A stretch of DNA of 64,000 bases from Microthrixaceae bacterium (lineage in GTDB: Bacteria > Actinomycetota > Acidimicrobiia > Acidimicrobiales > Microtrichaceae), in contig JAMLGM010000004.1 in NCBI GenBank assembly GCA_023957975.1, positions 124,001 through 188,000 on the forward strand, given 5' to 3'. The translations under genes were made by a program, and so were the position numbers. How positions within the stretch are numbered: the stretch's first letter is position 1; every line of letters starts with the position of its first letter. This document shows, in pieces, positions 28,878 to 45,426 of the stretch. Below the pieces are notes generated by a model, which worked only from the letters and a program-made list of their open reading frames with translations, had not been told where the DNA came from and made no database searches.

Positions 28878-29771
28878 TCAGGCGTCGCCGACCCGGCGGC
28901 GACCCATGGTCAGCGCAGCACCGAGGAAGATGAGCCCGGCGCCGAACACGGCGAGCCACACGTTGTCGCTACCCGTCGCTGCCAATTCTGCTCCGACCTT
29001 GCCGTTGCTGCCCGGCGCCACCGTGGTTGCTGCCCGGACGTCGTTCGGAATCGTGGTTGCGCTGTCGACCACGGCGACGGTTGTCGTCGGGGCGGCACTG
29101 GTGGGCGCGACGGCCGTGGTGGAGGTCGTGGTGGTTGGCTCTTCACAGTCTGCGGCACGACCGAGGTGCTGATGCGCAGTGCCGAGGTCGCCAGGGAACA
29201 ACAGCGTGTGGTCGAAGCCGGTGTTCAACTGCTCGGGGTTGCGTCCGTCGGTGAGGTCGAACTGCACCCGACGGCACACCTTGGTGAACTCGATCGTGTA
29301 TGTGCCGGCGCCCTTGAACACGACGTCGAGGGTCTCAGACAGGGTCTGGGGCCACTGGTTGGTCGTCTTCATGTCGTAGATGACCGCGGTGGCCGCAACC
29401 GGCGAACACAGCGGCGCGGGTGCGTTGATCTCGAGGGTCCAGGTGGCGTCGGTCGGGATCGCACGGTTGGACCACTGGGGATCGAGAATCCGTGGGAAGG
29501 TGCCGAACGCCTGCGAACGGGAGATGCACGATGCGGTGGACTCGGTGGGCACGTAGGTGAACTTGATGTTCTCCGATGCCACATCGGCCGGCACGAGAGC
29601 ATCGTCGACGGCGGCAGCGACCGGGGCCGAAGTATCGGTGGTGGCCGGAACGAGATCCTCCGACTGTGCACCGGCGACCAAAGGGGCGCCGATCATCGTC
29701 GAACCGAGGATGATCGATGCCGCTGCGAGCCGCACTCGCTTTGACTTGGTCTGACTTGGGTTGTGATTCAC
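28878..29771 (-). CDS. secreted cell-wall-anchored protein with LAATG sorting signal
   Basis: 297 residues from GTG 29771, chosen because GGGAG lies 9 bp upstream and the product then starts MNHNPSQTKSKRVRLAAASI, a normal signal peptide cleaved near AGAQS. Central domain (residues 60-215) is unfamiliar, with paired Cys (ASCISR, APLCSPV, TKVCRRV, AADCEE) suggesting disulfides outside the cell. Then a Thr/Ala/Pro-rich wall-spanning stretch, LAATG, a hydrophobic helix and RRR. This is the LAxTG sorting signal of class E sortases, as in the giant protein at 10585. It has a 5' leader of about 240 nt containing a C-rich hairpin (29831-29851). Confidence 0.85.
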   Translation of the reverse strand: MNHNPSQTKSKRVRLAAASIILGSTMIGAPLVAGAQSEDLVPATTDTSAPVAAAVDDALVPADVASENIKFTYVPTESTASCISRSQAFGTFPRILDPQWSNRAIPTDATWTLEINAPAPLCSPVAATAVIYDMKTTNQWPQTLSETLDVVFKGAGTYTIEFTKVCRRVQFDLTDGRNPEQLNTGFDHTLLFPGDLGTAHQHLGRAADCEEPTTTTSTTAVAPTSAAPTTTVAVVDSATTIPNDVRAATTVAPGSNGKVGAELAATGSDNVWLAVFGAGLIFLGAALTMGRRRVGDA

Positions 29772-29830
29772 TGCTGCAACTCCCATGTAGCTCTCGGTCA
29801 CCGTGACAGAACGGTGATGAGAAATTCAAG

Positions 29831-29851
29831 GTCCGGAGGGGGGATCCGGAC
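29831..29851 (-). promoter_or_regulatory. C-loop hairpin in the leader of the LAATG gene
   Basis: On the transcript strand GTCCGGA-TCCCCCC-TCCGGAC forms a 7-bp stem with a C6-containing loop, 60 nt before the start codon. Seventeen bases (CCGGATCCCCCCTCCGG) are identical to the third hairpin of the 6C RNA at 43719-43843. No U-tract follows, so it is not an ordinary terminator. Confidence 0.55.
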
Positions 29852-30015
29852 GAACTCATTTTTCTGGGTCGAACGACTCTGGGCCACTCGGCTCAGATAC
29901 TGAGGCGTGCGACCCATCCTACCCGGGTCGCCTCCGTTTGATGCGGATCGGCTTCAGGTGGGTGAAATAACCCAACCGCTGGGATGGCGGTCTCAAAAAG
30001 GCGCCCGCGATGGAA

Positions 30016-30155: not shown

Positions 30156-32237
30156 TCAGTCTCGACGCGGACCCTTATCGCGACGCACGCTCGTTCTGCG
30201 GCCCTTGATCGTCGTGTCGCCGAGCTTGCGGATCACCTCATCCGCGTTGCCGGAAGGAACCTCGACGAGGGAGAAGTTCTCGGTGATCCGGATGGCCCCA
30301 ATCTGGTTGCCGCGCAGCGAGGTTTCCCCGCAGATCGCCCCCACCAGGTCGCCCGGCCGCACACCGTTGCGGCGTCCGGCGCTCACCCAGATGCGGCTGT
30401 ATCCGGGCTGGACCGGGCGATCTCCCGGCCGTTCCCCGTCGCGATCGAAGCCCCTTCGGTCGCCACGTTTCGAGTCGAACCCACGGCGTTCGCCCGGGCC
30501 GCGCAGGGTCCGATCGGTTCCCTTGCGGAAACGATCGTTGCCCGCCGGACGGCGTTCCGAACGCATTTCGACGTTGTGGATTTCCTCTTCGTTTTCCGGG
30601 TGGGTCGACCCGAGTGCCTCGTGAGCGGCGCGCACCGCAGCCGCTGCGATGTCGGCAACGTCGAACTCGTCGCTCAGCGAATCGACGATCGAGCGGTAGT
30701 CCTCGTAGAGGTGTTCGACGAGCTCGGCGCGAATCTTATCGATCGTGAGTTCCTTGCGGCGGGTTCGCAGCTGGGCAACGGTCGGAATCTGGCCGATCGT
30801 GACGTGCTGTTTGGTCACGCGCTCGATGTTCTTGATGAACCGCTGCTGGCGCGGCTCGGCGATCGTGATCGCGGTCCCCTCGCGCCCGGCACGACCGACG
30901 CGGCCGATCCGGTGCACGTACTGTTCGGGAGCGGCCGGCACGTCGAAGTTCACCACGTGGGTGAGGTGATCGATGTCGAGGCCGCGAGCAGCGACGTCGG
31001 TGGCGATCAACAGATCGGCAGTCGTGGCGCGAACCCGACCCATGACGCGGTCGCGTTGTTCCTGACTCATGCCGCCGTGCAGGCCCTCGGCGCGATACCC
31101 GCGGCCGTTGAGCGCCTCGGTGAGTTCGTCGACCTCGGTTCGGGTGCGGCAGAACACGATCGCCGCCTCGGGAACCTCGACGTCGAGAATGCGGGCGAGT
31201 GCTGCGGCCTTGTCGTTGCGACGCACGTAGTAAACGGTCTGGCTGACCCGTGGCGCCTCGCCCTCGGCGACGACCTCGCGGGCGATCGTGATGTGGGTCG
31301 GGTCGTTGAGGTGACGCTTCGCCAGCCCAGCGATACGCGGGGGCATGGTGGCGGAGAACAACAGCGTCTGGTGCGGGTCGGGCACCGCCTCAAGGATGGC
31401 CTCAAGGTCCTCGGCGAATCCCATGTCGAGCATCTCGTCGGCCTCGTCCATCACCACGATCGACACGTCGTCGAGAACGAGCGATCGACGGTTGATGTGG
31501 TCGATGGCGCGGCCGGGAGTCGCCACGACGACGTCGACGCCGTGGCGCAGTGCGCCGAGCTGCTTGCCGATGGGCTGGCCGCCGTACACCGGCACGACCC
31601 GGGCACCGAAACGGCTGCCGTACGACTCGATGGCCTCCGACACCTGCATCGCCAGCTCGCGGGTCGGCGTGAGGATCAGCGCCATCGCCGTGTCGCCGCG
31701 GTTGCGGCCCTGGTTGCGCTGCGCCAGCTGTTCGAGCACGGGGAGGGCGAACGCTGCGGTCTTTCCGGTGCCGGTCGCCGCCTGGCCGAGCAGATCGTTG
31801 CCGGCGAGCACCGGCGGAATAGCCTCGCGCTGGATCGGGGTCGGTTCGTCGTAGCCGAGGTCGCTGAGCGCTTCGAGGAGCTTGGAGTTCAGGCCGAGTG
31901 CGGCAAATCCGCGGGCGGCCGGCGGCTGCGGCTGGTCTTCTTCGTCGTCTTCGTCGTCGTCGGGCTCGGGCTCGTCATCTTCGTCGGACGCATCGTCGTC
32001 GTCATCGTCGTCGCCTTCGGACTCGTCGGACTCGTCGGAGTCGTCGTCTTCGTCGTCGGAGTCGTTGTCGTCGGACTCGTCGTCTTCTTCGAACGCGGCG
32101 CGGCCGCGGTCACGCGGCGCGGCCAGCACGGGGTCGCTCAACTCAAGGTCATCGATACCGGCGTCATCGGAGGTCGCATCGGGCGTATCGGGGGCATCGT
32201 CGTCGCTGCCGGAAGCGGCAGAGGTGGTGTCGTTCAT
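30156..32237 (-). CDS. deaD: DEAD-box RNA helicase (CsdA/DeaD type) with acidic N-terminal tail
   Basis: 693 residues from ATG 32237. Residues 1-125 are dominated by Asp, Glu and Ser with hardly a basic residue, then the helicase core: Q motif PTPIQREAI, ATGTGKTAAF (Walker A), PTRELAMQV, VMDEADEMLDMGF (DEAD), SATMPP, ATDVAARGLDIDH and YVHRIGRVGRAGREG. The C-terminus ends in a DbpA-like RNA-binding domain (RIWVSAGRRNGVRPGDLVGA) after an Arg-rich linker. Acts in ribosome assembly and RNA turnover, often at low temperature. The S4-domain gene starts upstream on the same strand, 34 bp away, fitting a ribosome-related operon. The acidic tail is unusually long. Confidence 0.93.
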   Translation of the reverse strand: MNDTTSAASGSDDDAPDTPDATSDDAGIDDLELSDPVLAAPRDRGRAAFEEDDESDDNDSDDEDDDSDESDESEGDDDDDDDASDEDDEPEPDDDEDDEEDQPQPPAARGFAALGLNSKLLEALSDLGYDEPTPIQREAIPPVLAGNDLLGQAATGTGKTAAFALPVLEQLAQRNQGRNRGDTAMALILTPTRELAMQVSEAIESYGSRFGARVVPVYGGQPIGKQLGALRHGVDVVVATPGRAIDHINRRSLVLDDVSIVVMDEADEMLDMGFAEDLEAILEAVPDPHQTLLFSATMPPRIAGLAKRHLNDPTHITIAREVVAEGEAPRVSQTVYYVRRNDKAAALARILDVEVPEAAIVFCRTRTEVDELTEALNGRGYRAEGLHGGMSQEQRDRVMGRVRATTADLLIATDVAARGLDIDHLTHVVNFDVPAAPEQYVHRIGRVGRAGREGTAITIAEPRQQRFIKNIERVTKQHVTIGQIPTVAQLRTRRKELTIDKIRAELVEHLYEDYRSIVDSLSDEFDVADIAAAAVRAAHEALGSTHPENEEEIHNVEMRSERRPAGNDRFRKGTDRTLRGPGERRGFDSKRGDRRGFDRDGERPGDRPVQPGYSRIWVSAGRRNGVRPGDLVGAICGETSLRGNQIGAIRITENFSLVEVPSGNADEVIRKLGDTTIKGRRTSVRRDKGPRRD

Positions 32238-32271
32238 GAACCGGTTTTTCAAATCTGGGGGACGACCGAGC

Positions 32272-32664
32272 CTAGCGGTCCCTGCCCGTTCCACGGAATC
32301 TGTCCATCTCGCGACGTTCCTTCTTCGTGGGCCGACCCGTGCCACGGTCGCGCACCGCCGGCGGAGCGACGAACTCGCGCGGAGGCGGCGGCGGACTGTG
32401 ATCTACATAGGCGCTCTGGGCCACCGGGGCGCCGACCCGCTTGTCGAGCAGACGGACCGCCTCGACCACAAACGTTCGGCCCTGTGCCCGACATTCGATG
32501 CGGTCGCCCACCTTCAGCTTCGTCGCCGGCTTCGCCGGGTGACCGTTGACCCGGACGTGGCCTCCCTTCACCGCGTCGGTCGCGCTGGAACGGGTCTTGT
32601 ACAGCCGGATCGCCCACAAGAAGGAGTCCACCCGAACGGAATCGAGAACAGCGGAATCGGCCAT
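32272..32664 (-). CDS. S4-domain RNA-binding protein (HslR/Hsp15-like)
   Basis: 130 residues from ATG 32664. The N-terminal S4 fold is clear: VRVDSFLWAIRLYKTRSSAT then AVKGGHVRVNGHPAKPATKL and VGDRIECR. The C-terminal third is Pro/Arg/Lys-rich (GRPTKKERREMDRFRGTGRD), as in Hsp15-type proteins that bind stalled 50S subunits. Precedes the DEAD-box helicase gene by 34 bp and is divergent from the acyl-CoA dehydrogenase gene (80-bp gap). Confidence 0.88.
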   Translation of the reverse strand: MADSAVLDSVRVDSFLWAIRLYKTRSSATDAVKGGHVRVNGHPAKPATKLKVGDRIECRAQGRTFVVEAVRLLDKRVGAPVAQSAYVDHSPPPPPREFVAPPAVRDRGTGRPTKKERREMDRFRGTGRDR

Positions 32665-43624: not shown

Positions 43625-43706
43625 GGTGCCGATCGTACCCCGCAATATCTCTAAAAGCGATCACAACTATCGACAACAACTGCTGGAAAGATTGCTTGCA
43701 GCTGTT

Positions 43707-43712
43707 TATACT
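43707..43712 (+). promoter_or_regulatory. -10 box of the 6C RNA
   Basis: TATACT, with transcription expected from about 43719. The region 17 bp upstream has only TGGAAA, a poor -35. Confidence 0.55.
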
Positions 43713-43718
43713 GAACCT

Positions 43719-43843
43719 CACAAGAGCGGCCAAGGCGAACGGACCCCCCTCCGAGCCGGGCCGCCGGTCTCCGACAGAATCCCCCCTCTGCGGAAGACCA
43801 ACCCCGAAGGACCGGATCCCCCCTCCGGTCCTTCGGCTGTTTT
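43719..43843 (+). ncRNA. 6C small RNA
   Basis: About 125 nt with three stem-loops, each carrying a run of six C in the loop (43744-43749, 43781-43786, 43818-43823): CGGA-CCCCCC-TCCG inside a longer stem, GGTCT...CAGA-ATCCCCCC-TCTG...AGACC, and a terminator CCGAAGGACCGGA-TCCCCCC-TCCGGTCCTTCGG followed by CTGTTTT. This is the hallmark of the actinobacterial 6C RNA (two or more hairpins with C6 loops). In Mycobacterium the 6C RNA (B11), as I recall, also lies beside a HAD-IB hydrolase gene, as here. 6C RNAs act by base-pairing with G-rich ribosome binding sites; reported targets concern division and secretion. Confidence 0.85.
43804..43843 (+). terminator. intrinsic terminator of the 6C RNA
   Basis: 13-bp stem, C-rich loop, then CTGTTTT. 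The next gene starts at 43921. Confidence 0.8.
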
Positions 43844-43920
43844 GCCCGGATGGGTCGGGTCCTCGCATATTGCGCGAAGAACCCCGTGTGGAGGCGGGGT
43901 TCAACGGATAGCGTCGGGGC

Positions 43921-45426
43921 GTGGCCGACTCAGCATCAGCATCACGTCCAGCGAAGAAGCGCCCGCCACGCCGGGCACGGACTCCGAAGTTCTCCAGCGC
44001 AGCGATCTTCGACCTCGACCGAACGTTGCTTGCAGGAGCAAGCGGTCCGGTGTTCAGCGACGCCCTTCGACGCCACGGGGTCATCAATTCGCCGAAACTT
44101 CCGATCGAGCCGGCGCTGTTCAAAATGTTCGACCTGTTCGGCGAGAACCGCCCGACGATGCTGCTGACCAAACAGGGAGTGCGCCTCGCCAAGGGATGGA
44201 ACCGCGCCGCGGTCGAAGCGGCAGCACTCGATGCGACCGACGAGTTGATGTCGAAGATCCTGCCCTACGCCATCACCGAAATCGCCCAACACCGAGCCGC
44301 CGGCCGAGCGATCGTGATGGCGACCACCACCCCGCATCACCTTGTGGCGCCGCTCGCGGAGCGTCTCGGCGTCGACGTCGTGCTCGCCACCCGCTACGGA
44401 GACGAGGCCCGCGACGACGGCATGGTCGTGTTCGACGGCACCGTCGAGGGGACCTACGTGTGGGGCAAGGGTAAGGCTGAGGTTGTCCATGCCTGGGCGC
44501 ATGAGGCCGGAATCGACCTCGCCGACTCCTATGCCTACAGCGACAGCTACTTCGACCTGCCGTTGTTGTCGATGGTCGGCCACCCCCATGCGGTCAACCC
44601 CGACGCCCGCCTCGCGGCGGTGGCGCTGTTGCGGCGCTGGCCGATACGGTCGCTGGCCACCCCACCCGGGGTGCCGAGTTTCGCCGGGTACGAACCCCAA
44701 CAGCTCGCCTTGCAGCTGGCCCGACCGGAGTTGTTGCCGTTCGTGTCGTTTCGCACCTATGGCACCCGACGGATCCCCGAGGCGGGCCCGGCGATCATCG
44801 TCGGGAACCACCGCAGCTACTTCGACCCGTTGGCGATCGCCGTCGTGTTGTCGAAACGTGGGCGCCAGGTGCGGTTCCTCGGCAAGAAGGAGGTGTTCGA
44901 CGCCCCCCTCGTCGGCGACGTCGCTCGGGCGATGGGTGGGATTCGAGTCGATCGGGGCACCGGCTCGGATGCACCGCTGCGCGCCGCCGAGGAGGCGCTC
45001 GAGGCCGGCGATCTCGTGGCCCTGATGCCACAGGGAACCATTCCGCGGGGCCGAGCGTTCTTCGACCCGGTCCTCAAAGGGCGATACGGGGCCGCTCGAC
45101 TCGCCCAGGCGACGGGGGTTCCGGTCATCCCCGTCGGGCTGTGGGGCACAGAACAGGTGTGGCCGCGGTCGTCGAAGCTGCCCAACGTCACCAACGTTCT
45201 GCATCCGCCGACCGTGTCGATCCGCGTTGGCCCGCCGGTGGAACTGGCCCACAAGTCGCTCGAAGACGACACCGAACGCATCATGGCTGCGATCATGCGG
45301 CAGTTGCCGGCGGCGGCCCGAGAATGGCGCGAGCCGACCCCGGAGGAGATTCGGCGAGCTTCGAAATCGGGTTCCCTCGACGACGATCTTGAGCACGAGA
45401 GCGACCGTCGACCCGGCGAAGACTGA
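43921..45426 (+). CDS. HAD-IB phosphatase fused to 1-acylglycerol-3-phosphate acyltransferase (PlsC)
   Basis: 501 residues from GTG 43921. Residues 25-235 form a HAD-IB hydrolase: AIFDLDRTLLAG (nucleophile Asp), MATTTPHHLVAPLAERLGV (motif II), YSDSYFDLPLL (motif IV). Residues 260-480 form an acyltransferase: GNHRSYFDPLA (HX4D near 297), VRFLGKKEVFDAPLVG, LMPQGTIPRG (near 369; family usually PEGT). The fusion, like CicA/PlsC-type proteins, would make phosphatidic acid from lysophosphatidic acid and act on a phosphorylated partner at the membrane. Downstream of the 6C RNA. Confidence 0.9.
   Translation: MADSASASRPAKKRPPRRARTPKFSSAAIFDLDRTLLAGASGPVFSDALRRHGVINSPKLPIEPALFKMFDLFGENRPTMLLTKQGVRLAKGWNRAAVEAAALDATDELMSKILPYAITEIAQHRAAGRAIVMATTTPHHLVAPLAERLGVDVVLATRYGDEARDDGMVVFDGTVEGTYVWGKGKAEVVHAWAHEAGIDLADSYAYSDSYFDLPLLSMVGHPHAVNPDARLAAVALLRRWPIRSLATPPGVPSFAGYEPQQLALQLARPELLPFVSFRTYGTRRIPEAGPAIIVGNHRSYFDPLAIAVVLSKRGRQVRFLGKKEVFDAPLVGDVARAMGGIRVDRGTGSDAPLRAAEEALEAGDLVALMPQGTIPRGRAFFDPVLKGRYGAARLAQATGVPVIPVGLWGTEQVWPRSSKLPNVTNVLHPPTVSIRVGPPVELAHKSLEDDTERIMAAIMRQLPAAAREWREPTPEEIRRASKSGSLDDDLEHESDRRPGED

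Follow-up and report, generated by a model that had tools for sequence, protein, structure and literature searches.

The 6C RNA (Rfam RF01066; B11 in mycobacteria) is known as a standalone small RNA, in which two or three hairpins each expose a loop of about six cytosines and the array ends in an intrinsic terminator. B11, the mycobacterial homologue of 6C, represses its targets by pairing of its C loops with their ribosome-binding sites; either of the B11 loops suffices for repression, and among the genes that rise in the absence of B11, those with at least six complementary nucleotides near the start are over-represented (PMC10470900). C-loop sRNAs are also found in another phylum, in alphaproteobacteria such as Caulobacter, Azospirillum and Croceicoccus (compare Rfam ar7 and CcsR1), and these too are standalone, multi-hairpin RNAs. 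Here we describe a hairpin with a 6C-type loop that is situated in the predicted 5′ leader of a surface-protein gene of a Microthrixaceae bacterium. The window, i.e. the whole stretch of DNA that was analysed, is 64,000 nucleotides long and also contains a 6C RNA of its own, with which the leader hairpin is compared below.

The 6C RNA of the window and the surface-protein leader

The 6C RNA of the window extends over positions 43719-43845 of the + strand, its 5′ end being estimated from the sequence TATACT at 43707-43712. It consists of three hairpins with C6 loops, with TTTT after the last of them, and has a structure z-score of -6.6. The third hairpin (43804-43836, +) has a stem of 13 bp and forms the terminator. 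Directly downstream lies a conserved neighbour of 6C, a HAD hydrolase-acyltransferase gene (43921-45426, +), and two to three C-loop hairpins were found upstream of the orthologous gene in nearly all readable family genomes, readable meaning that the contig reaches far enough; in the related genome G005 this array is positioned 1.3 kb upstream of the HAD-acyltransferase gene. A scan of the genome with RF01066 gave no match for 43719-43845, which does not attain the gathering cut-off. The element is nevertheless a real 6C RNA, named on its structure and its locus and not on an Rfam score, and the 6C label that it had received in the first-pass annotation is right, with both the HAD-acyltransferase locus and the array of C-loop hairpins recurring across the family. 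The RF01066 model matches few genomes in general (2 of 61, G058 above the cut-off and G021 below it), although the array stands before the HAD gene in nearly all readable members of the family; the match in G021 is the array adjoining the HAD gene.

The surface-protein gene (28878-29771, − strand) encodes a secreted sortase-type protein of 297 aa with an LPXTG-like LAATG anchor, which scores above the cut-off of TIGR01167; no Pfam domain was found in the protein. Translation most likely starts at GTG 29771, located 8 nt after a GGGAG Shine-Dalgarno (SD) sequence (29780-29784, −). An alternative ORF from ATG 29859, which is without an SD sequence and overlaps the LAATG gene in another frame, was set aside. 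Upstream, on the same strand, lies a gene for a DEAD-box RNA helicase with a DbpA domain (30156-32345, −, as the ORF is listed; the true start may lie inside it). The leader had earlier been put at about 240 nt, and this figure has to be revised: TAGGAT at 29916-29921 (−) is likely the -10 element of the LAATG gene, since TAGNNT upstream of genes in this genome is enriched in the sense direction (232 sense versus 68 antisense; 14 versus 3 for TAGGAT itself). From this promoter assignment, transcription would be expected to start near 29909, giving a predicted leader of about 138 nt.

The C-loop hairpin, GTCCGGA-TCCCCCC-TCCGGAC, occupies 29831-29851 (−), with the SD sequence beginning 46 nt after it. 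It has a perfect stem of 7 bp and a loop of 7 nt, and as RNA (GUCCGGA-UCCCCCC-UCCGGAC) it folds with -10.3 kcal/mol. According to the ensemble prediction for the leader, the 7-bp hairpin forms with a probability of 0.93-1.0 and its C loop is unpaired with a probability of 1.0. A possible extended hairpin (29817-29859, −), missed in the first-pass annotation, adds AUGAG/UUC ... GAA/CUCAU to the stem, resulting in 5 + 3 + 7 bp interrupted on the 3′ side by two bulges of 3 nt each, and reaches -13.9 kcal/mol when folded alone. Its outer 5 bp have a probability of only 0.01 in the full-leader ensemble and are not dominant, the outer part being in competition with a neighbouring hairpin, TCACCGT-TCTGTC-ACGGTGA (29798-29817, −), which is well formed in the predicted full leader.

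Compared with 6C RNA, the leader element has the identical 17-nt apex, CCGGA-UCCCCCC-UCCGG, and the same exposed C-run. It differs from 6C RNA in consisting of one hairpin, with no second C-run nearby, in the lack of an intrinsic terminator (the tail is only CTTGAATTTC, a weak match to the consensus), in being unconserved, and in belonging to the leader of a protein-coding mRNA instead of the HAD locus. An Rfam scan of the element yielded no relevant match. With one hairpin, no terminator and a position outside the 6C locus, the assignment to 6C RNA was rejected; the leader hairpin, though no 6C RNA itself, could work like one arm of it.

Identity of the two apices and their occurrence in other genomes

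The first-pass annotation had drawn attention to seventeen bases shared by the leader and the third 6C hairpin and had judged a chance match very unlikely. Both statements hold. The 17-mer CCGGATCCCCCCTCCGG is present at 29833-29849 (−) and, as an exact match in the apex of the third 6C hairpin, at 43812-43828 (+), 14 kb apart, and a search that allowed one mismatch gave no third copy anywhere in the 3.62 Mb of the genome. Markov models of orders 0-4, trained on 2.4 Mb of the genome, predict 0.0008-0.006 extra copies genome-wide and 0.0002-0.0005 in intergenic DNA; the pattern was selected post hoc, and these expected copy numbers are not clean p-values. The two copies agree beyond the 17-mer, with 22 of 24 bases identical and CCTT 3′ of the stem shared, and the two mismatches are both sides of one compensated stem pair, which is T-A in the leader and A-T in 6C. 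The next-best 24-mer site in 2.4 Mb has 5 mismatches, equal to shuffled queries. Judged from the sequences, the apex of the leader hairpin corresponds to the 6C apex and a chance origin appears unlikely.

Hairpins of this kind are also rare in the genome, of which approximately 2.4 Mb was read in stretches and approximately 1.2 Mb was searched only by pattern. When C6-loop hairpins were required to have 7 or more perfect pairs and a loop no longer than 9 nt, a census over 1.24 Mb gave only four, namely the 6C terminator hairpin, hairpins from two further 6C-like RNAs and the hairpin of the LAATG leader. A looser census over 2.0 Mb brought in more hairpins of the same RNAs. Strong C6-loop hairpins in this genome are almost confined to 6C-like RNAs and the LAATG leader.

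Within the order, the 17-mer was detected in 10 of 397 genomes, and the reversed 17-mer, used as a control, in none. The nine other genomes have one copy each, and because this copy is in all nine the last hairpin of a 6C array (an array being counted as 6C if at least one other C-run hairpin was present), the 17-mer is, on sequence grounds, 6C-specific within the order. At least 119 stretches of the genome_contigs collection, which covers 85,000 species, carry it, and 80 of these were read. Stems of at least 9 bp were seen in 19, mostly RNAs carrying other C-runs, and this group includes the 6C of Actinobacteria and the C-loop RNAs of alphaproteobacteria; in the latter the 17-mer is the apex of a terminator-type hairpin accompanied by other C-runs, and a putative relation to the leader would be one of function or convergence only. 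The remaining 61 are hairpins with stems of 5-8 bp from many phyla, some of them repeated in congeners, e.g. in Mesorhizobium, so lone copies do arise at a low rate. The 21-mer of the leader hairpin was not found in viral contigs.

Two of the short-stem groups have features of their own. Several Mesorhizobium species (L265, L270, L271, L283, L308, L318, L320) have a lone CCGGATCCCCCCTCCGG hairpin with conserved flanks (CAGGTCCGGATCCCCCCTCCGGGCCGGGTCACAATC) in a non-obvious context. In Polaromonas (L279, L286, L316) the 17-mer lies inside a longer repeat (CTTCTCGGCTCACT.CGTGTAG...), which is present twice in one genome and constitutes a dispersed repeat that includes a C loop.

Of the 32 other family genomes, 27 encode homologues of the LAATG protein, with 31-51% identity over the matched part, and no close relatives of this protein were found in the genome_contigs collection. 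The gene order of helicase and LAATG gene was found retained only in G005, with two ORFs in between. The G005 leader aligns partly with the leader described here (CGTTyTGTCACGsTGA) and has GATCCCTCCTTGCAGG at the position of the hairpin, with no C-loop hairpin; among the 24 other homologue leaders scanned, a C-run hairpin precedes the SD sequence in one (L010, from G028). The usual 6C apex of the family, CYGGCTCCCCCCGCCRG, is present in 14 of 33 genomes as one copy each, except for one genome in which the HAD locus itself is on two contigs. Judged by coordinates, no relative repeats its own 6C apex as a lone copy elsewhere than in 6C, the G003 copy of CYGGCTCCCCCCGCCRG, 15 kb from the HAD gene, having been placed by coordinates alone. 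Conservation of the hairpin upstream of orthologues, which the first-pass annotation had named as a check and whose lack in close relatives it would have counted as a refutation, was thus not observed: in this comparison, made with genomes outside the genus, the syntenic G005 orthologue lacks the hairpin, as do nearly all the other homologue leaders, and as far as can be seen from these sequences it appears private to this genome.

Possible action of the leader hairpin

The best explanation, which we put forward tentatively and at somewhat less than even confidence, is a lineage-specific C loop borne by an mRNA and acting on the same G-rich sites as 6C. The LAATG leader would be transcribed and would carry a lone C-loop hairpin of the 6C type specific to this lineage, whereby the short GC stem would present UCCCCCC single-stranded at its apex, the same surface as in 6C. 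The exposed C-run would pair with G-rich RNA, for instance with the G-rich ribosome-binding sites of other mRNAs, and the leader would thereby compete with 6C, add to 6C or dock a G-rich RNA, with presumable effects on the 6C targets or on the surface protein. This explanation is founded on the sequence, the predicted structure, the exposure of the loop, the identity with 6C and the rarity of such hairpins. The role of a sponge or competitor could apply by analogy with the C-loop hairpins in the untranslated regions of another mRNA in the same family.

No general rule stands behind the leader hairpin. Using home-made gene calls over 2.4 Mb, 40 C6 runs versus 48 G6 runs and 44 C5-loop versus 46 G5-loop hairpins were counted in sense leaders, and a general leader rule for C-runs was rejected, the C counts being no higher than the G controls. 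G-rich SD sites complementary to the loop were genome-wide no commoner than in the mirrored control, and an enrichment of such targets was likewise rejected.

A close rival, nearly as likely as the best explanation, is that of an ordinary stabilising or incidental leader hairpin that came to resemble 6C by chance or drift in GC-rich DNA and has no function specific to the C loop. It is in agreement with the relatives, which do not conserve the hairpin, with C-run leaders that are not enriched genome-wide, with the lone 17-mers on 5-8 bp stems in many unrelated bacteria and with a coincidence that was picked post hoc, but it has to accommodate expected copy numbers far below one both genome-wide and in intergenic DNA (about 0.0002-0.0005 in the latter), a 22/24 match with a compensated pair, and 7-bp C6-loop hairpins that are almost confined to 6C-like RNAs in this genome. 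Alternatively, the apex of the 6C terminator hairpin may have been copied into the leader and be now decaying or newly adopted. Such a duplication would fit a match that exceeds the 17-mer, with CCTT 3′ of the stem included, and two copies lying within 14 kb, but we consider it improbable: the similarity ends at 24 nt, with no flanking 6C sequence, outer stem or T-run, and a CGGA-UCCCCCC-UCCG apex recurs in the 6C hairpins of other lineages, including hairpin 1 of G005, so that convergence explains the likeness equally well.

Two further explanations place the action of the sequence elsewhere. The first-pass annotation had suggested a self-occluding element, in which the C-run would pair with GGGAG, the ribosome site of its own mRNA, and repress it. 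Between UCCC and GGGA 4 bp are possible, with -6.0 kcal/mol for the free duplex, and the G005 orthologue has an unstructured CUCCUUGCAG for which pairing with CUGCA...GGGAG is predicted, but 4 bp is less than the 6-nt rule for B11 targets (PMC10470900), and with the hairpin formed at a probability near 1 and its loop unpaired in the ensemble, no contact of the loop with the SD sequence is predicted; self-occlusion is accordingly disfavoured and may be regarded as very unlikely. Since the SD sequence offers the C loop only these 4 bp, whereas a B11-type target would have 6 nt or more of complementarity to a C loop, situated no further than 25 nt from the start, repression of the LAATG mRNA by 6C is not favoured by the sequence either. 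The + strand could matter instead, either through an antisense transcript with a GGAGGGGGGAUCC loop serving as an anti-6C sponge, or through the palindrome as a DNA operator. GGAGGGGGGAUCC is the exact complement of the 6C loops, the + strand hairpin is by construction perfectly complementary to 6C hairpin 3, and a T-run comes after the extended stem ATGAG...CTCAT. However, no promoter-like site was found on this strand, the T-run comes 8 nt past the GC stem, behind bulges, and the extended stem is not the predicted fold in a longer context; we hold a role of the + strand to be quite improbable.

C-loop hairpins in other messages of the family

The two further 6C-like RNAs revealed by the hairpin census are located 1.2 kb apart in the same genome (C1:480001-500000, referred to as L138), at L138 9366-9530 and 10599-10770. 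The former has the position of a 3′ UTR behind the gene of a 114-aa protein of no known family, cotranscription being presumed; gene and array together cover L138 8943-9535 (+), with orthologues in L225-L252. The latter (+), with C6, C8 and C6 runs and a terminator, is apparently standalone and scores 26 bits with the Rfam 6C model, below the cut-off. At the locus of the 114-aa gene, C-runs or C-loop hairpins immediately upstream of the SD sequence, and 2-4 C-loop hairpins with a terminator behind the stop codon, are conserved across the genera of the family. Of 29 family loci, 16 have two or more C-loop hairpins in the 200 nt that follow the stop codon (G-loop controls, 0). In the 70 nt upstream of the start codon, 20 loci contain a C5+ run (G5+ in 1) and 6 a C-loop hairpin (G control, 0), the 29 loci being mutually related and the counts not independent. 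By these counts, the family repeatedly has C-loop hairpins within an mRNA or immediately after it, though not at the LAATG gene. Like the LAATG leader, the 114-aa gene and its orthologues have C loops (C5-8) within an mRNA of the same genome and family; its arrays are conserved across genera and lie mainly in the 3′ UTR, whereas the hairpin of the LAATG leader is single and private.

The promoter regions of the 6C RNA (window 43690-43712) and of the 114-aa gene (L138 8911-8935) have TTGCTTGC in common, followed by a -10-like element, and this combination recurs in the family. From the shared sequence, common regulation of 6C and the 114-aa gene is possible.

A broader proposal, about which we are more doubtful than about the leader itself, is that the mRNAs of the family with 6C-type C loops act in trans on the G-rich ribosome-binding sites of 6C, which would then be one node of a C-loop RNA network. 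For this the 3′-UTR array is a stronger lead than the LAATG leader, which alone is weak evidence because it is private. If mRNA leaders and 3′ UTRs do carry the C-loop module, regulation by 6C could be extended by mRNAs or meet with competition from them, and the conserved 3′-UTR array makes the idea of mRNA-borne C loops testable across the family.
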